From contig NZ_FOSQ01000021.1 of assembly GCF_900114315.1 (NCBI RefSeq), forward strand, positions 1 to 64,000: a DNA stretch of 64,000 nucleotides, written 5' to 3'. The stretch comes from Falsiroseomonas stagni DSM 19981 (GTDB lineage Bacteria > Pseudomonadota > Alphaproteobacteria > Acetobacterales > Acetobacteraceae). A program made the position numbers and the translations under genes. The notes beneath the pieces were generated by a model. It saw only the letters and a list, made by a program, of their open reading frames with translations. It did not search any database and had not been told where the DNA came from. The first letter of the stretch is position 1, and every line of letters starts with the position of its first letter. Below, piece after piece: positions 8,386 through 18,125 of this stretch.

Positions 8386-9813
8386 TCAGTTGAGCTTGGC
8401 GCGCATCTGCCCGGATTCGGCGGGGTTGGCCAGGGGGAGAGAGGCCGCCGTCTCCAGGGCGCGGGCCGCGCGGAAGGCGAGGTCGTCCCGGTAGAGCGCC
8501 GCCGCCACCTGCACGCCGCGCGGCATGCCGGCCTCATCAAGGCCGATCGGCACGGCAATGGCGGGCTGGCGGGTCAGGTTGAAGGCGAAAGTCCAGGGTG
8601 CCCAGTCCCGCCACAGCGCCTCTACCGGGCGGATGGTCGGCGCATCGGCGTCCAGCGCCGCGGTCGGCGTCGCCGCCGTCAGGATCAGGTCATAACGCTG
8701 GTGGAAGCGCGCCATGGCATGCCCGCATTCCACGCGCAGCATGTCGGCGCCAAGGAAATCGGCCGCCCCCATGTCGCCCATCTTCCGGGCGACTTCCTCG
8801 ATCCCCGCATCCAACTGGCCACGCTTCTCCTCGGCCGTGCCGGTCCAGATGCGGGCGATGGCCACGCCCCAGACGCGGGAGAAGATGGCGCGCGTATCGG
8901 GCAGCTGGGGGTCCGCCTCCTCCACGATCGCGCCCTGCTCCGCCAGCAGCTTGGCCGCTACCTGCAGAGCGGCCTCCCCTTCCTCGTCCAGCGGCGGCTC
9001 GAAGCCCAGGCGCCGCACCACGGCCACGCGGAGGCCCGCCACGCCCTGGTCCATGCCAGCGCGCCAGTCACGTGGGTCATCCGGCAGGCAGACGGGGTCG
9101 CGCAGGTCGTGCCGCGCCATGGCGGACATCATCAGAGCGGCGTCGCCCACGCTGCGCGTCATCGGCCCCGCGCAGGCGACGGCGGAGAAGGCGCCATGCG
9201 GCCATTGCGGGATGCGCCCGTAGCTCGGCTTCACGCCGACAAGACCGCAATAGGCGGCGGGAATGCGGATCGATCCGCCGGCATCGGTGCCGATATGCAG
9301 CGGCCCGAAGCAGGCCGCCCCGGCCGCGCCGGCGCCCGACGAACTACCCCCGGGCGTGCGTTGCGGGTTCCAGGGGTTACGGGTGATGCCGTGCAGCGGG
9401 CAGTCGCCCGGCGTCTTCCAGCCGAATTCCGTCGTCGTCGTCTTGCCGATGATGACAGCCCCCGCCGCCTTCAGCCCCACTACCGCCGGCGCATCCTCCG
9501 TCGCCGGAGTCGGATCCGTCACCAGGCTGCCGCGTCGCGTCGGGAAGCCCGCGATGTTCAGCAGGTCCTTCACCGTGCAGGGCACGCCGTCCAGGATGCC
9601 CACCGGCCGCCCGACGGCCCAGCGCGCCTCGCTCTCCCCCGCCTCCCGCAGGGCGCGGGGATTCATGGTGGCGAAGGCGTTGACCCAGGGGTTGTAGCGG
9701 GCGATCCGCTCCGTCACCGCCTTCAGCGCCTCGACCGGGGAGAGCGCGCGGCGCGCATAGAGCGAGAGAAGCTGTTCCGCGGTCATCAGCGCGGGATCGG
9801 TCGGTGTCGTCAT
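8386..9813 (-). CDS. Amidase-signature-family amidohydrolase
   Basis: 475 residues from ATG 9813. The Lys-cisSer-Ser triad is intact: K82 (CTVKDLL), S157 (PGGSSSGAG) and S181 (GTDAGGSIRIP), the last two spaced 24 residues apart as in well-studied amidases. The amidase signature covers roughly residues 75-200. The family includes GatA, AtzE, AtzF/allophanate hydrolase and many carboxamide hydrolases, and the exact substrate cannot be read from the sequence. It is the first gene of a minus-strand run with FAH, Bug and M20 genes, 65 bp divergent from the deacetylase-fold gene at 9879, so the two sets may share a control region. Confidence 0.92.
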   Translation of the reverse strand: MTTPTDPALMTAEQLLSLYARRALSPVEALKAVTERIARYNPWVNAFATMNPRALREAGESEARWAVGRPVGILDGVPCTVKDLLNIAGFPTRRGSLVTDPTPATEDAPAVVGLKAAGAVIIGKTTTTEFGWKTPGDCPLHGITRNPWNPQRTPGGSSSGAGAAGAACFGPLHIGTDAGGSIRIPAAYCGLVGVKPSYGRIPQWPHGAFSAVACAGPMTRSVGDAALMMSAMARHDLRDPVCLPDDPRDWRAGMDQGVAGLRVAVVRRLGFEPPLDEEGEAALQVAAKLLAEQGAIVEEADPQLPDTRAIFSRVWGVAIARIWTGTAEEKRGQLDAGIEEVARKMGDMGAADFLGADMLRVECGHAMARFHQRYDLILTAATPTAALDADAPTIRPVEALWRDWAPWTFAFNLTRQPAIAVPIGLDEAGMPRGVQVAAALYRDDLAFRAARALETAASLPLANPAESGQMRAKLN

Positions 9814-9878
9814 GCGGGGCTTCCAGGGGGGCTCTGTGGCGGGCAGCATGGCGCCGCACCGCCTCCGAGGAAACCCCG

Positions 9879-10778
9879 ATGCCAGAACCGACGCCCCCCT
9901 GGGAACTGACCGAGCCCGAGTGGCGGAAGATCGTCGGCCGCGCCCGCGCCGGCCGCAGCCTGCGCCCCGCATCCTGGCCCGGCGGCGCCCGCTGCTGCGT
10001 GACCCTGTCCTTCGACGCGGACCATGAGACGGGGCCGCTGCGCGACTCCGACGACAGCCCCATGCGCATCAGCCAGGGCCAGTACGGGTCCCGCCAGGGC
10101 ATCCCGCGCATCCGCGCCCTGATGGCGAAGCACGGCATCCCCGCGACCTTCTTCTACCCCGCCGTCAGCGCCATGCTGCACCCCGAGGAGATTCGCGCGG
10201 TCGCCGACGAGGGCCATGAGATCGGCATCCATTCCTGGATTCATGAGGCCAACACCAAGCTGCCCCAGGGCGTGGAGCGCGACCTGACCCTGCGATCGGC
10301 CGATATGCTGGAGAAGCTGTCCGGCCAGCGCCCCGTCGGCATCCGCACGGCGTCCTGGGACTTCTCGATCGACACGCTGTCGATCATCAAGGAGATGGGG
10401 CTGCTATACGACAGCTCCCTCATGGCCGATGACGATGCCTATGAGCTGCTGGACCAGGGCGAGCCCACCGGCATCGTGGAACTGCCGCCGGAATGGATCC
10501 GTGACGACGCGGTCTATTTCAACATGCTCCGCTTCAGCGGGCTGCGGCCCTACACGCCGCCCTCCGCGGTGGAGGAGATCTTCACGGCGGAGTTCGACGG
10601 CGCCTATGCGGAAGGCGGCATGTTTCTGCTGACCATGCACCCGCACATCATCGGCCACCGGTCCCGCCTGCCCCTCCTCGACCGCCTCATCACCCGCATG
10701 AAGAAGCATGAGGGCGTGTGGTTCGCGACCCACGCCCAGGCCGCGCAATGGTGCAAGGACCATGGCGGCACAGGCTGA
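9879..10778 (+). CDS. Polysaccharide-deacetylase-fold (CE4-like) hydrolase
   Basis: 299 residues. The NodB-type core starts CVTLSFDADHETGP, where the usual DD metal site reads D-A-D-H-E. It continues with YGSRQGIPRIRALMAKHGIPATFF, GHEIGIHSWIHE (the HxxxH-type metal His residues) and a late MTMHPHIIGH block. The pattern is that of the HpPgdA/PuuE branch, which includes peptidoglycan deacetylase-like proteins, allantoinase PuuE and bacterial cyclic-imide hydrolases. There is no signal peptide and the neighbours are amidases, so I favour a cytoplasmic imide or ureide hydrolase over a cell-wall enzyme. The start at ATG 9879 follows family length; the frame is open upstream to 9804. Confidence 0.85.
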   Translation: MPEPTPPWELTEPEWRKIVGRARAGRSLRPASWPGGARCCVTLSFDADHETGPLRDSDDSPMRISQGQYGSRQGIPRIRALMAKHGIPATFFYPAVSAMLHPEEIRAVADEGHEIGIHSWIHEANTKLPQGVERDLTLRSADMLEKLSGQRPVGIRTASWDFSIDTLSIIKEMGLLYDSSLMADDDAYELLDQGEPTGIVELPPEWIRDDAVYFNMLRFSGLRPYTPPSAVEEIFTAEFDGAYAEGGMFLLTMHPHIIGHRSRLPLLDRLITRMKKHEGVWFATHAQAAQWCKDHGGTG

Positions 10779-10832: not shown

Positions 10833-12383
10833 ATGAGTCGATCGATACGAGCGGGCGGTGATGCTCAGGCGCGGCGCCGTTTCGGACCCTGGCGGCTGCT
10901 GCTGGCGGCGCTGATCGCGCTGCTGGCGCCCCCCCCGGCCCTGGCGCAGGACCGCGTGCTGCAGGCCGGCTGGTACGCCAGCGAACCGCAGCAATACCTG
11001 CGCCAGGGGGAGCTTACCGGCCTCGACATCGAGATGGTGCGCGCCATCGCCCGCAAGGTGGGTGAGGATGTCCGCTTCGTCCCCATGGGCTACCTGCCGC
11101 TGCTGGAAGCCGTTGCGGCGGGCCGGATGGATCTGGCGACCGGCATCCCGCAGACGGAGGAGCGCGCCCGGCGTTACGCCTTCTCCCTGCCTTACAGGCA
11201 CGACGTCAACGTGCTGGTGGTCCGGCGTGGGGAGGGCGCGCGGCTGCGCTTCACCGATGCCGAGGGGCTCGCCGCCTTCCTGGCCCAGGACCGGCAGTTC
11301 CGCCTTGGCGTCCGTGCCGGCTTCTCCTACTTCAACGCGGCGCTCGACGCCTTCATCGCCTCACCCTCCATTTCCGGGCGCGTGCGCCCTGCCAATGACG
11401 ATGCGACCAACATCCGGCGCCTGCTGGCCGGGGAGATCGATGGCTTCCTGGCGGAACGCCTGTCCGTCGCCCTGACCATCACCAGCCTCGGCGCCGCGAC
11501 GTGGGTGGAGGAGGCGCCGATGCGCATCATGATCCCGCTCCACCTGGCCTTCAGCCCGGGCACGGTGACGCCCGCCATGCTCGGCCGCTTCGACGCGGCG
11601 ATCGAGATGCTGACGGAGGACGGAACGCTGGACCGCATCGCGGCGCGCTTCCGCTTCCCCATCCTGCTGTCCCTATCCATCGAGGGGCGGTGGTTCCTGG
11701 TGCTGCAGATCACCGGCGCCGTCGCCAGCGCGCTGGCCGGCGCGCTGGCGGCGCGGCACAGCGGCTGGTCGCTGTTCGGCGCCTTCGTGCTGGCGGCCAT
11801 CACCGCCGCGGCCGGCGGCGTGCTGCGGGACCTGCTGGTAGGGCGCTATCCCCTTGGGATCCTGCGCAATCCCCTGTTCCTGCAGCTCATCCTCGGCACC
11901 GTTCTGGTGGTCTGGGCGGTGATGCATGGCTGGGCGCTGCTGCGGGGGCGTGCCATCCTGGCCTTCTGGATCGCGCAGGTTGCGGTGGCGATGCGCCAGC
12001 GCCGCGCGGATCGCTGGCTGTTCGACTTCGCCGATGCGCTCGGCCTCGGCGCCTCCACCGTGCTCGGCGTCACCATCGCCTTCGGCATGGGGGCGGACCC
12101 GCTCTGGCTCTGGGGACCGCTGCTCGGCACCATCACCGGCGCGGGGGGCGGCATCATCCGCGACGTGCTGCGCGGCGGCGGCAGCATCCCCAACCTGACC
12201 ACGGGCTTCTATGGGGAGGTCGCGCTCATCTGGTCGCTGGCGCTGACCGCCTATCTGATGGTGCGCGGCCCGGGCATCGAGATCGATGAGGTGGCGCCCG
12301 CAGTGATCGTCGCCGTCATCGGCTGCGTGATCACGCGAATGACCGCGCTGGCCTTCCGGTGGAAGCCGCCCCGCATGCCCTGA
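10833..12383 (+). CDS. Fusion of a periplasmic solute-binding domain (SBP_bac_3) and a TRIC/UPF0126 membrane channel
   Basis: 516 residues. A signal anchor (residues 20-39, ending ALAQD) is followed by a family-3 solute-binding domain at about 41-275: GLDIEMVRAIARKVGEDV, LEAVAAGRMDLATG, YAFSLPYRHDVNVLVV, and TLDRIAARF at its end. From about 286 to 505 come two tandem UPF0126/TRIC repeats, each with a Gly-rich kink and a GG-x-x-RD motif (GGVLRDLLVGRYP at 328-340, GGGIIRDVLRGGG at 438-450) and about seven hydrophobic segments. TRIC proteins are trimeric monovalent-cation channels with the N-terminus outside, so the binding domain would sit in the periplasm. The design recalls glutamate-receptor channels. 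The start is ATG 10833; GTG 10797 is possible. Confidence 0.88.
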   Translation: MSRSIRAGGDAQARRRFGPWRLLLAALIALLAPPPALAQDRVLQAGWYASEPQQYLRQGELTGLDIEMVRAIARKVGEDVRFVPMGYLPLLEAVAAGRMDLATGIPQTEERARRYAFSLPYRHDVNVLVVRRGEGARLRFTDAEGLAAFLAQDRQFRLGVRAGFSYFNAALDAFIASPSISGRVRPANDDATNIRRLLAGEIDGFLAERLSVALTITSLGAATWVEEAPMRIMIPLHLAFSPGTVTPAMLGRFDAAIEMLTEDGTLDRIAARFRFPILLSLSIEGRWFLVLQITGAVASALAGALAARHSGWSLFGAFVLAAITAAAGGVLRDLLVGRYPLGILRNPLFLQLILGTVLVVWAVMHGWALLRGRAILAFWIAQVAVAMRQRRADRWLFDFADALGLGASTVLGVTIAFGMGADPLWLWGPLLGTITGAGGGIIRDVLRGGGSIPNLTTGFYGEVALIWSLALTAYLMVRGPGIEIDEVAPAVIVAVIGCVITRMTALAFRWKPPRMP

Positions 12384-12433: not shown

Positions 12434-13597
12434 ATGTCCTCCCCCTTCGTCCCCGGCACGGCGGTCCGTCTTCCCGGCACGCCGGGCGGTCCGCTCACAG
12501 GCCTGACCTTCGCCGCCAAGGACCTGTTCGATGTCGCCGGCCACCCGACAGGCGGCGGCAACCCGGACTGGGCGCGCCAGAATCCCATCCCGACGCGCCA
12601 TGCCTGGGCGGTGCAGGCGATGCTGGATGCCGGCGCCACGCTGGTCGGCAAGACCATCACGGATGAGGTCTCGCTCGGCATCCTCGGCGAGAATGCCTTC
12701 GAGGGCACGCCACTGAACCCCGCGGCGCCGGGCCATGTGCCGGGCGGTTCCTCCTCCGGTTCCGCCAGCGCCGTCGCGCAGGGGATCTGCGACACGGCGC
12801 TGGGCACGGATACCGGTGGCTCCGTCCGCGTGCCCGCCAGCTTCTGCGGGCTCTACGGCATCCGCCCGACGCATGGGCGACTGGACCTGACGGGGATGCT
12901 GCCGCAGGCGCCGTCCTCTGACACTACCGGCTGGTTCGCCCGCGATGCCGCCACCTTCGCCCGCGTCTCGGCCGTGCTGCTGGAAGAGGCGATCGAGGGG
13001 CCACTGCCGGCGCGGCTGGTGATCGCCATCGACGCATTCGGCTTCGCCGACCTCGCGGCGGCGGAAGCCATTACCCCGATCCTCAACCGCCTGAAGCGCC
13101 TGGTGCCGGATTGGCAGGAGGAGGTGATGGCGCCGCAGGGCCTCACCACCTGGTCCCGCGCCCAGCGCACCCTGCAACCCGTGGAGGCGTGGGAGACCTT
13201 TCGCACCTGGGTGGAGCGCGACAACCCACGCTTCGCCTTCAGCGTCGCCCGCGGCCTGGTCATGGCGGCGATGACGCCGGAGGCCGATCGCGGCTGGGCG
13301 GCGCTGGTGCGGCGGGAGGCCCGCGGCCGGCTCCGCCACCTGCTGCCGCCGGGCACCATCCTGGCCATGCCCACCGCGCCCTTCGCGGCGCCGAAGACGG
13401 CGCTTCCGCTGCCGGAAATCGATGGCATCCGCGCCGCCATCAACGTGCTCTGCGCCCATGGCGGCCTGGCCGGCCACCCACAAATCAGCATCCCCGGCGC
13501 CACGCTCGATGGCCGCCCCATCGGCCTCAGCCTGCTTGCCGCGCGCGGCGCCGATGCCATGCTGGTGCGCACCGCCCTGGCCCTGGAGAGCATCTGA
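12434..13597 (+). CDS. Amidase-signature-family amidohydrolase (AtzE/HpxY-like by context)
   Basis: 387 residues, on the short side for the family. The triad is K29 (FAAKDLFDV), S106 (PGGSSSGSA) and S130 (GTDTGGSVRVP), with the normal 24-residue spacing. The gene's TGA overlaps the next gene's ATG (ATGA), which couples it to an HpxZ/AtzH-type protein. In purine-derived oxalurate use and in cyanuric-acid degradation, an AtzE-type amidase is encoded beside such a protein, so a role on a ureido or biuret-like amide is plausible. The small AtzG/HpxX partner that AtzE needs was not found here. The start ATG 12434 follows a GGAGC stretch. Confidence 0.88.
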   Translation: MSSPFVPGTAVRLPGTPGGPLTGLTFAAKDLFDVAGHPTGGGNPDWARQNPIPTRHAWAVQAMLDAGATLVGKTITDEVSLGILGENAFEGTPLNPAAPGHVPGGSSSGSASAVAQGICDTALGTDTGGSVRVPASFCGLYGIRPTHGRLDLTGMLPQAPSSDTTGWFARDAATFARVSAVLLEEAIEGPLPARLVIAIDAFGFADLAAAEAITPILNRLKRLVPDWQEEVMAPQGLTTWSRAQRTLQPVEAWETFRTWVERDNPRFAFSVARGLVMAAMTPEADRGWAALVRREARGRLRHLLPPGTILAMPTAPFAAPKTALPLPEIDGIRAAINVLCAHGGLAGHPQISIPGATLDGRPIGLSLLAARGADAMLVRTALALESI

Positions 13598-13992
13598 TGG
13601 ACGTGAACATCCCGGAGGTCGTGGAGGAGATCCGCACCCTCTTCGAACGCTACGAGCAGGCGTTGGTCGACAAGGATGTCGAGGTCCTGGACGCCACCTT
13701 CTGGAACAGTCCCCACACCATCCGCTACGCCATCCATGAGAACGGCTATGGCTTCCAGGAAATCCACGCCCACCGCGTACGCCGCCCGCCCGGCCCCGGC
13801 ATCAAGCTGGCGCACCGCCGCCTGGTGATCACCACGCTGGGGCGCGACTTCGCCACGGTGAACCTGGAATTCGACATGCGCGGCCGCACTACGACCGGAC
13901 GACAGAGCCAGACCTGGGTTCGCTTTCCACAAACCGGCTGGAAGGTCGTGTCAGCGCATGTGTCGGTGACGGAGGCATCACCCGCCTACTGA
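13597..13992 (+). CDS. hpxZ: HpxZ/AtzH-family protein (DUF3225, NTF2-like fold)
   Basis: 131 residues matching the small DUF3225 family: EVVEEIRTLFERYEQALVDKDV, then DATFWNSPHTIRYAIHENGYG, IHAHRVRRPPG and TWVRFPQTGWKVVSAHVS. The family is NTF2-like. Members are AtzH of the cyanuric-acid pathway, reported to act on a dicarboxyurea intermediate, and HpxZ of oxalurate catabolism. The start codon overlaps the stop of the amidase gene by one base, so the two proteins are made together and probably act on consecutive intermediates. The GGT-fold gene at 16542 may be related, because hpxW encodes such an enzyme in Klebsiella. Confidence 0.85.
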   Translation: MDVNIPEVVEEIRTLFERYEQALVDKDVEVLDATFWNSPHTIRYAIHENGYGFQEIHAHRVRRPPGPGIKLAHRRLVITTLGRDFATVNLEFDMRGRTTTGRQSQTWVRFPQTGWKVVSAHVSVTEASPAY

Positions 13993-13993
13993 C

Positions 13994-14665
13994 TCAGTGG
14001 ATCGCCCCCTGCCTCATCAGTGCGGCGTAGATGTCACGCGTCGCCGCACCAAGGGACCGCGATAGTTCCTCAAGCGCTACGATCCGCTCCACCCGGGGCG
14101 CGACGCGCGCGGCTTCCTCCGCCGAGAGCAGCAGCGGCACCAACCCTGTGGCGCGGGCCAACCCGATCAGCAGCGCGTCGCGCGGCTCCGGGATGCTATC
14201 GTCCAGCAGCACATGGCGGAGCCGCGCCCGAACCTCCTCGACCTCCGCCCGTCCCTCTGCCTTCGGATAACGGCGCTCCGGGAAGACCCAGAGGAAACGG
14301 TCCTCCACCCGCCGCAAAACGCCGCCCTGCACCAGGCGCTCCAGCAATTGCGTGCGCATCGGGCCCGCACCTCTGGCGAAGGCCTGGATCCAGCCGCGGC
14401 TGGTGCGCGCGGCGCCCGGCGCTACCAACTGGGCCAGTGCGCCATCCAGCACCGCGTCGCCGACGGGCTTCGGATCCACGACCGTCAGGCAGTCGAGGTC
14501 CGTGTCAATGCGCCCGGCCAACGCCAGTTCCATGAGGATGGCGCCAACCAACGCCAAGTCGCCCGCCGGCCCCTTCAGACCGACGGGTTGGCCCGTCTCG
14601 TCATCGAGGAGGAGCAGCAGAATCTCCTCCGCCATCGTCAGCGCCATCGCATCCATCCCAGGCAT
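13994..14665 (-). CDS. GPP34 (GOLPH3-like) family protein, copy A
   Basis: About 223 residues with the GPP34 pattern: a starting hydrophobic-acidic AEEILLLLLDDETG, then the repeat LVGAILMELALAGRIDTD, GVLRRVEDRFLWVFPERRYP, and a C-terminal ARATGLVPLLLSAEE segment. Eukaryotic GOLPH3 binds PI4P at the Golgi; the bacterial members have no established role, though a membrane-surface or phosphate-binding function is often inferred. Several in-frame ATGs (14665, 14656, 14647) are possible starts. The gene follows a strong terminator (14684-14711), so it is probably transcribed separately from the Bug receptor upstream. A paralogue lies at 15874. Confidence 0.82.
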   Translation of the reverse strand: MPGMDAMALTMAEEILLLLLDDETGQPVGLKGPAGDLALVGAILMELALAGRIDTDLDCLTVVDPKPVGDAVLDGALAQLVAPGAARTSRGWIQAFARGAGPMRTQLLERLVQGGVLRRVEDRFLWVFPERRYPKAEGRAEVEEVRARLRHVLLDDSIPEPRDALLIGLARATGLVPLLLSAEEAARVAPRVERIVALEELSRSLGAATRDIYAALMRQGAIH

Positions 14666-14683
14666 CGCGATGGATTGTGCAAC

Positions 14684-14711
14684 AAAAAAGGGGCGGCCGT
14701 GAGGCCGCCCC
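14684..14711 (-). terminator. Rho-independent terminator after the Bug receptor gene
   Basis: On the minus strand a perfect nine-base stem GGGGCGGCC / GGCCGCCCC with a four-base loop (TCAC) is followed directly by six T. This is a textbook intrinsic terminator placed 25 bases after the stop of the receptor gene ending at 14736. It separates that gene from the GPP34 copy downstream. Confidence 0.88.
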
Positions 14712-14735
14712 CACTTCACCACCGAAGGCTCTTTC

Positions 14736-15873: not shown

Positions 15874-16536
15874 TCACGCCTCCCGCTGCGCGGTCCCGAT
15901 CCCGGCGCCGCGGATATCCGCCACCGCCACCGCCAGAGACCGGTTCAGGCTCTCGATCCGGGTGACGACCTCCAGCCAGGGCTGCACCCGCGCGAGTTCC
16001 GCCGCGGAGAAGATCAGCGGCAGCAGCCCCGCCGCCCGTGCCAGCCCGAGCAGCAGCGCATCATGCGGGTCGGGTATCTCCTCCCGCATCAGCAGGGCAC
16101 GGAGCCGTGCCCGCGCTTCCGTCACCTCCGCCCGGCCTGGCGCCTTGGGGTAGCGGCGATCGGGCAGAATCCAGAGCAGGCGTTCATCGACGCGCTTCAG
16201 GATGCCGCGCACCACCAGCCGGTCCAGGATCACCGCCCGCGCCGCCGCCGCATCCCGCGCCAGCAGCGGGATGGCACCGCGCGCATCGATGGGCGCGCCC
16301 GGCGCGGCGAGGCGCGCCAGCGCGCCATCCAGCGCCTCGTCACCGGTCGGCGCGGCATCGACCAGGATCAGCCGATCCCGGTCCGTGTCCACCCGCCCCG
16401 CCAGCGCCAGTTGCATCAGCAGTGCGCCAGCCAGCGCGCGGTCGGGCGCCATGCCTGCGCGGCCGACCGGCCTCCCGGTCTCGTCATCCAGGGAGAGAAG
16501 GGTGATCTCCTCCGCCAGGCTGAGCGCGGCCTCCAT
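15874..16536 (-). CDS. GPP34 (GOLPH3-like) family protein, copy B
   Basis: 220 residues, clearly paralogous to the product of 13994-14665: the same LAEEITLLSLDDETGRPVG opening, ALLMQLALAGRVDTDRD, GILKRVDERLLWILPDRRYPKA, and ARAAGLLPLIFSAAEL near the end. It starts at ATG 16536, five bases after the stop of the gamma-glutamyltransferase-fold gene, so the two are very likely co-transcribed. No signal peptide or membrane helix is seen. The function of bacterial GPP34 proteins is not established. Confidence 0.85.
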   Translation of the reverse strand: MEAALSLAEEITLLSLDDETGRPVGRAGMAPDRALAGALLMQLALAGRVDTDRDRLILVDAAPTGDEALDGALARLAAPGAPIDARGAIPLLARDAAAARAVILDRLVVRGILKRVDERLLWILPDRRYPKAPGRAEVTEARARLRALLMREEIPDPHDALLLGLARAAGLLPLIFSAAELARVQPWLEVVTRIESLNRSLAVAVADIRGAGIGTAQREA

Positions 16537-16541
16537 CGGCC

Positions 16542-18125
16542 TCAGCCCTGCGCGAGCGCGGCGGACCAGGGCGACATCACGTCGGTGATGCCCTGGCGCG
16601 TGCCGTCGGCCGAGATACGGATCAGGTTCGGGCAGGCGAAGTTCACCGGCAGCACGGCGTGCTCCACGATCTCCAGCGGCCCCATCGCGGCCAGGGCATC
16701 GAGCGTCGCCTGGGGCAGGCGGCGGTCGGCGGTGGCGCCCTCCGGCCCGCTGACATCGATGCGCGGGAAGTGCGCCGCAGCCTCCGGATCCATCCCGAAG
16801 CCGGCCACAAGCGCCAGGGTCTGGTACACGGCGGCCAGGATCCGCCGCCCGCCGGAGGCGCCAAGTGCCATCTCCGGCACCCCCGCGGGGTCGGAGACCA
16901 GCACGGGCGACATATTGGTCAGCGGCCGCTTGCTCGGCCCGATCTGGTTGGGGGAACCCGGCCGCGGGTCGAACCACATGACGCCGTTGTTCATCAGCAC
17001 ACCAGACCCCGGCAGCACCACCCGGCTGCCCATGGAGGACAGCAGCGTGGTGGTCATCGCCACCATCATCCCGTCCTCGTCGCAGACGGTCAGGTGGGTG
17101 GTGCAGCTGTCGGCGCCCTTGGGCTCGGCATCGCCGAGGCCCTCCAGCCGCTCCGCATAGGCGGCCTGCATGGCCTTGGCGAAGGCGATGTGCCAGGCGG
17201 TTCCGGGCTCCGCGCCCGACCAATCCGCGCCTTCCATCAGTTCCATGACGCGGCGGAAGGTCGGCGTGGCGGTGAGGCCGTTGGAGAGGTGGAGCGTCCG
17301 CCCCCGCCACGGCACGGACACAGCCGGCAGCACCCGCGCCCGGCAGCCCGCGAGGTCGGCGGCGGAGAGCACGCCGCCCATCGCCTTCACATCCGTCGCG
17401 ATGGAGGCCGCGATGTCACCCTCATAGAAGTCGCGGAACCCTGCGGCCTGCAGCCGCTCCAGTGTCGAGGCCAGGTTGCCGAGTGGGAAGAAGCCGGGCG
17501 TGCCCTGGTAGGGCGCGACGGGCGGCAGCCCACCCGGCAGGTAGATGCGCGCGGATTCGGCGTAGAGCTTCAGGGTGGACGCCGCATTCGCGATCTTCAG
17601 GGTCGTGAACCAGTCCTGCGCCAGGCCCCGCTTCGCGAGCGCGATCGCCGGCGCCAGCACGTCCCGCGCCGGCAGCCGCCCGCGCTTCTCATGCAGCAGC
17701 GCATAGCCCGCGACCGAGGACGGGATGACGAAGCTCATCGGGCCGTGGATGTTGCGGTCGCCCACCACCTCCGGCCAGGCGAACAGATCCTGCTTCATCC
17801 GCCCCGTGGTCGGAAAGTCCTTGGCATGGAGGCCCGCGGGCGAGACGGGCCCGAAATCGAAGGTTTCCGCCGCACTGCCTGGTGCCACCACCTGCGCGAA
17901 GCCGATGCCGCCGAGGCCGCTGTTCCAGGGCTCCATGGCCGCGAGCGCGAAGGCCATGCCGACCGCCGCATCCGCCGCATTGCCCCCGGCAGCCAGGATG
18001 GCGATGCCCGCTTCCGCCGCGTCGCGGGACTGGCTGGCGACCATCCCGCGCCGGCCAGTCGCGGCCGGCTTGGAGACCTGCCAGTGCTGGCTGACATGGA
18101 CAGGCGGGGTGTAGATGAGCGGCAT
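16542..18125 (-). CDS. Gamma-glutamyltransferase-fold Ntn hydrolase (HpxW-like candidate)
   Basis: 527 residues. The large-subunit region includes AGGNAADAAVGMAFALAAMEPWNSGLGG. The autocleavage site is D-S-C/T-T-H-L, giving T342 as the new N-terminal nucleophile of the small subunit, followed by TVCDEDGMMVAMTTTLL, the SRVVLPGSGVLMNNGVMWFDP block and GASGGRRI. Relatives include glutamyltransferase, cephalosporin acylases and the oxamate amidohydrolase HpxW. There is no signal peptide, unlike classical periplasmic GGT, so a cytoplasmic amide hydrolase such as HpxW fits better. Nearby hpxZ-like and amidase genes support this, but they are on the other strand, 2.5 kb away. Confidence 0.85.
   Translation of the reverse strand: MPLIYTPPVHVSQHWQVSKPAATGRRGMVASQSRDAAEAGIAILAAGGNAADAAVGMAFALAAMEPWNSGLGGIGFAQVVAPGSAAETFDFGPVSPAGLHAKDFPTTGRMKQDLFAWPEVVGDRNIHGPMSFVIPSSVAGYALLHEKRGRLPARDVLAPAIALAKRGLAQDWFTTLKIANAASTLKLYAESARIYLPGGLPPVAPYQGTPGFFPLGNLASTLERLQAAGFRDFYEGDIAASIATDVKAMGGVLSAADLAGCRARVLPAVSVPWRGRTLHLSNGLTATPTFRRVMELMEGADWSGAEPGTAWHIAFAKAMQAAYAERLEGLGDAEPKGADSCTTHLTVCDEDGMMVAMTTTLLSSMGSRVVLPGSGVLMNNGVMWFDPRPGSPNQIGPSKRPLTNMSPVLVSDPAGVPEMALGASGGRRILAAVYQTLALVAGFGMDPEAAAHFPRIDVSGPEGATADRRLPQATLDALAAMGPLEIVEHAVLPVNFACPNLIRISADGTRQGITDVMSPWSAALAQG

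Follow-up and report, generated by a model that had tools for sequence, protein, structure and literature searches.

A 64,000-nucleotide stretch of Falsiroseomonas stagni DSM 19981 (contig NZ_FOSQ01000021.1, positions 1 to 64,000; the window) raises the question of what a periplasmic solute-binding protein (SBP) domain does when it is joined in one chain to a membrane domain of the TRIC/UPF0126 family. The reading favoured here, with moderate confidence, is that the encoded protein is a one-chain uptake protein, in which each protomer of a TRIC trimer carries a rigidly attached periplasmic SBP of amino-acid type and the ligand passes through. The fusion and its family, the predicted fold, the conserved pocket residues, the fixed length of the linker and a family-specific motif were computed, and we infer a coupling of the SBP to the pore and the passage of the ligand itself. 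For prokaryotic TRICs the activating stimulus is described as unclear and the physiological role as almost unknown (PMC5477506). A natural SBP-TRIC fusion supplies a candidate stimulus, and perhaps the cargo, in one soluble and assayable domain, and would add a partner type for periplasmic binding domains beside the ABC, TRAP/TTT and glutamate-receptor systems. Both domains are known singly. No description of UPF0126/TRIC joined to a solute-binding domain was found in the titles and abstract openings listed, with preprints and most subscription papers outside the search, in line with the remark of an original prediction from the window's sequence that no characterised protein of such architecture was known to it.

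The gene is one uninterrupted frame of 516 residues with no internal stop (Table 1). Only two Pfam models score above their cut-offs in the chain, SBP_bac_3 (PF00497; residues 50-273, 75.9 bits against 26.4, E 3.3e-21) and the UPF0126 family (PF03458; two stretches, 76 bits against 23.5, E 2.1e-21). The frame, a full binding domain at about 41-275 and two UPF0126 repeats with GG-x-x-RD motifs had all been predicted, and all are borne out, the motifs lying inside the ranges given for them (328-340 and 438-450). The predicted signal anchor is not: by eye the N-terminus looks more like a signal peptide that is cleaved off than like a clear anchor, with an AxA-like site for signal peptidase ahead of residue 39, between ALA and QD; six orthologues from the genus have an AxA-like site too. 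The binding domain combines the two-lobe SBP fold with its above-threshold Pfam match, and a single-chain structure prediction of the window protein gives the TRIC fold. The fusion protein presumably forms a trimer.

Ordinary TRIC genes are separate, as is the one on contig C34 of the same genome, and the fused frame could in theory be an assembly or frameshift join of two genes. Nothing of the kind was found for the window gene, and this explanation, with a negligible chance of being right, is ruled out by a conserved family of 68 distinct fusions with the same frame, order and spacing in five named phyla. Both parts are also conserved at the protein level within the genus. Orthologues 68-84% identical occur in six of its 14 other genomes (7/15 counting the window's own), and the crude ratio of non-synonymous to synonymous substitution rates does not reach 1 in either domain in 4/4 genus pairs (SBP 0.20-0.37, TRIC 0.14-0.50), the signal peptide giving 0.97-1.49. 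The 68 are what is left of 82 full-length frames after removal of duplicates, and come from Pseudomonadota, Verrucomicrobiota, Planctomycetota, Thermodesulfobacteriota and Vulcanimicrobiota, with three records lacking a phylum label; many of them are metagenome bins and may carry a wrong species label. Four loci with the SBP and TRIC parts in separate frames (L056, L081, L094, L147), which are probably interrupted genes or assembly errors, were excluded from them.

A scan of a species-genome collection confirmed 157 relatives; among the 80 loci listed for them the match extends into both domains in 56 and covers the TRIC part only in 24. Matches at E <= 1e-25 occur in at least 22 of 385 genomes of a class sample, at least 14 of the 385 matching the fusion model over almost its full length (table read by eye), and matches at E <= 1e-60 in at least four of 398 genomes of a phylum sample, the window's own counted. 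These sample counts are lower bounds, reflecting search patterns, strict E-values and at most three candidates scored per genome in the large samples. As judged from this sequence conservation, the fusion is a conserved protein family.

Among solved structures the family profile finds amino-acid SBPs, with the GlnPQ binding-domain tandem as its first PDB hit. R111 and E208 align with residues which we take to be the arginine and the acid that hold the alpha-amino-acid ligand in HisJ/GlnBP, and constitute a predicted amino-acid-type ligand pocket. Arginine stands at 111 in 58/68 fusions, D or E at 208 in 60/68, and the two occur together in 56/68, the window protein among them; W47 (63/68), S118 (64/68), P120 (64/68) and Y121 (63/68) are similarly frequent. 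The pair is missing in 12/68 fusions, including a paralogue on contig C13 of the window's genome, and some members of the family may therefore have lost or changed ligand binding.

The gate network of SaTRIC consists of D99, R139, D140 and Y155 (PMC5477506). The window protein has the same D-R-D-Y set at D401, R443, D444 and Y460, residues found in 72, 71, 68 and 69 of 74 fused domains, respectively. In SaTRIC an asparagine close to the three-fold axis, N144, which follows R139 by five residues, is termed highly conserved (PMC5477506). Its place is taken by G448 in the window protein, and asparagine is rare there in fused (2/74) as in ordinary rows (9/45), so in this set it is not a defining residue of the family. 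R447 was considered as the counterpart of N144 and rejected, since by residue count it lies one place earlier; this is no evidence against a channel. Compared with the prokaryotic TRIC channels SaTRIC, CpTRIC, SsTRIC and RsTRIC, the fusion adds the N-terminal SBP domain, and it differs from ordinary TRICs in a WLWGP mouth, R447, E462, W467 and a longer loop between transmembrane helices (TM) 3 and 4. W427, R447, E462 and W467 are each found in 0/45 ordinary rows. WLWGP (ADPLWLWGP from residue 421 in the window protein) lies in the TM4-TM5 turn, would be periplasmic if the N-terminus is outside, and may contact the SBP.

The linker measures 13 residues between 273 and 287 in all 68 aligned fusions; by the same measure, lengths of 17 to 37 occur in the TM3-TM4 loop. 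An unaligned pattern, P-x10-hydrophobic-F, is present in 63/68 and agrees with the fixed spacing, whilst a cruder pair of anchors gives one spacing in only 36/51 rows, the others being scattered, probably because of wrong anchors. Steps of 14 residues are also of constant length at 53/207 SBP and 98/197 TRIC positions. Since roughly a quarter to a half of comparable steps within the domains are equally constant, the linker is likely to behave as part of a folded unit and not as a loose tether. In the structure model, TM1 (286-309) comes after the final helix of the SBP (265-283).

In the proposed uptake mechanism, ligand binding would close the SBP, and the closed state would be relayed to the pore through the fixed linker into TM1 and, by a second route, through contact of the SBP with the WLWGP mouth. 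The gate would then open and a small amino acid or amide ligand would cross the pore of that protomer. Passage of the ligand is favoured because mutant-fitness work ties UPF0126 genes to the use of glycine in 11 bacteria and points to glycine transport (PMC12173739), because the neighbouring genes are of hydrolase type, and because the layout is like that of the GlnPQ-type ABC importers, which also carry SBP_bac_3-type domains and a membrane domain in one chain (PMC8025302). Unlike in GlnPQ, the membrane domain is a TRIC; the chain has no ABC permease domain, and a scan of ten neighbouring proteins, like that of the chain itself, gave no ABC domain. Should uptake prove to be the mechanism, the protein would resemble the TRAP/TTT importers in binding-protein-dependent uptake without ATP, but its membrane part differs from their subunits, which are usually encoded by separate genes.

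The ligand-gated channel of the original prediction shares the first steps of this mechanism, SBP closure and pore opening, and differs in what passes: closure would pull on TM1 and open a monovalent-cation pore, and the ligand would not pass. The fusion, the SBP and the TRIC domain on which that idea was built are confirmed, but the channel itself, although possible, seems less probable than uptake. It would be a channel unrelated to the glutamate receptors, and it is only tentatively that an amino-acid receptor on a TRIC trimer can be proposed to tie nutrient sensing to membrane potential. The parallel drawn with GluR0 survives as an analogy for gating, and as such speaks for a channel. However, GluR0-type ionotropic receptors have an SBP split by a K+-channel-like pore, whereas the SBP of the fusion is contiguous (residues ~39-276), with one linker, and its TRIC pore is unrelated. 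The connection of UPF0126 with glycine use (PMC12173739) and the hydrolase genes adjoining the fusion gene in close relatives also argue against a channel. The assignment of UPF0126 as a cation channel is thus not the only reading, the family now being named 'Glycine transporter' in Pfam.

Several observations weigh against uptake of the ligand. Archaeal SaTRIC conducts K+ in bilayers, which fits a channel (PMC5477506), and the fixed linker would serve gating no less well than delivery. A search of 11 fusion loci (141,988 bases) gave no glycine riboswitch at the gathering threshold, and among the 76 neighbour proteins compared from 39 loci no partner recurs. These 76 were hand-chosen from 200 picked by a simple script for open reading frames, with the Roseomonas bin L043 in and L038-L042 and L053 out; the commonest neighbour was TctC (3/76; best 25 of 89 families listed). 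In addition, SBP-less TRICs with the same WLWGP motif exist, and the fusions without the pocket pair keep W427 in 12/12 cases. The motif thus does not need a working SBP, and its retention in SBP-less genes weakens the case for a contact between the two. These pocket-less SBPs, the C13 paralogue included, and the SBP-less relatives with a fused-type TRIC (L090, L132, L133) would suit a carrier in which the TRIC domain alone moves glycine or an ion and the SBP only tunes it, its ligand possibly not being the cargo. Such a sensor-regulated carrier is unlikely, given that the pocket pair is retained in 56/68 fusions and that the conserved mouth motif belongs to the fused-type TRIC domain itself.

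A quick tree was made from 117 of 126 rows, 18 named loci being listed for exclusion and rows of fewer than 150 residues dropped. In it 39 ordinary TRICs are set apart by a branch with 99% support in the Shimodaira-Hasegawa-like approximate likelihood ratio test (SH-aLRT), and 75 rows (68 fused and seven fused-type) form one large group (86%). Two Thermodesulfobacteriota fusions and a TRIC fused to an NMT1/THI5-type domain fall in between, on branches of 86-87%. The label 'fusion' requires at least six changes on the tree, four of them forced by starred branches, against a shuffle mean of 36.6, and several of the changes fall on fragments and on the three nested genes that lack an SBP. A single old origin with later losses would be a plausible history.

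Variants of the architecture were seen around the family. For the SBP-less genes (L090:5860-6729 (+), L132 and L133), no separate SBP gene was found beside such TRICs in L208 and L209, and L090 has no open reading frame of at least 150 residues matching the SBP part at E <= 1e-10. The NMT1/THI5-type fusion (L135:1444-3327 (-), 628 codons; PF09084, E 4e-25; PF03458, E 5e-31), from the single-contig genome G233, is also L210:3362-5197 (-), and as a single case has WFWIP near the WLWGP place; no second one was found in 398 phylum genomes (E <= 1e-20, at most three candidates scored per genome) or in the one other genome of the order. Two Thermodesulfobacteriota fusions, L071:140-2470 (+) and L075:5758-8172 (+), have an extra C-terminal stretch of ~230 residues with no Pfam match. 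Tandem or multiple copies occur at L057, L067 and L054 and in genomes G145 and G249; in the family of G145 (genomes of 0.9-1.5 Mb) the fusion is present in 3/3 genomes, with three copies in two. The paralogue on C13 (L002:1339-2931 (+)) is 29% identical to the window fusion; its SBP part has no Pfam hit and no pocket arginine, its TRIC part retains WLWGP, and, on a short contig (15 kb), it may be foreign in origin. A 450-residue N-terminus of L132 and a 790-residue frame at L148 were judged by eye to be probable chance GC-rich frames.

Table 1. Positions in the window of the fusion gene, its parts and the adjoining genes
Feature	Position	Strand	Basis
Divergent amidase (PF01425)	8386..9972	-	profile search
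Polysaccharide-deacetylase-family gene, distantly PuuE-like, just upstream	9804..10778	+	profile search
Whole SBP_bac_3-TRIC fusion, 516 residues	10833..12383	+	translation, Pfam, alignment
Signal peptide, residues 1-38, AxA-like cleavage site	10833..10946	+	by inspection; orthologues
SBP_bac_3 domain, residues 39-276	10947..11660	+	Pfam, structure model
R111 codon, predicted Arg for ligand carboxylate	11163..11165	+	alignment; role as in HisJ/GlnBP
E208 codon, predicted acid for ligand amino group	11454..11456	+	alignment; role as in HisJ/GlnBP
Linker, residues 274-286	11652..11690	+	alignment, structure model
TRIC/UPF0126 domain, residues 287-512	11691..12368	+	Pfam, structure model
GGVLRD of first repeat (328-333), TM2	11814..11831	+	alignment
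Fused-family motif [DE]PLWLWGP (422-429), TM4-TM5 turn	12096..12119	+	alignment
GGIIRD of second repeat (439-444), TM5	12147..12164	+	alignment
Downstream amidase	12434..13597	+	profile search; start by inspection
AtzH-like/HpxZ gene, above cut-off	13603..13992	+	profile search; start by inspection

The context of the gene was examined in eight close relatives (L038-L043, L053, L088). All eight have the PuuE-like gene, which at 91.5 bits is below the cut-off of the allantoinase PuuE model, the divergent amidase, an FAA hydrolase gene and TctC genes, and three of them have the downstream amidase with the AtzH-like gene. These hydrolase-type neighbours are a hint, for the window's clade only, that the ligand could be an amide or ureide, and the ligand of the window protein may be of this kind. 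To that extent the ligand class deduced earlier from the amide-hydrolysis genes may hold; at the 39 other loci no partner recurs. A neighbouring gamma-glutamyltransferase-family gene was considered as HpxW and rejected, as no NCBIfam model scored above cut-off. The window also holds a bacterial GPP34 (Golgi phosphoprotein 3-like) gene at 13994-14722 (-) and a second, GPP34-like by likeness, at about 15874-16560 (-). The GPP34 genes alternate with a TctC receptor gene and the gamma-glutamyltransferase-family gene, an order found in six of the eight close relatives.
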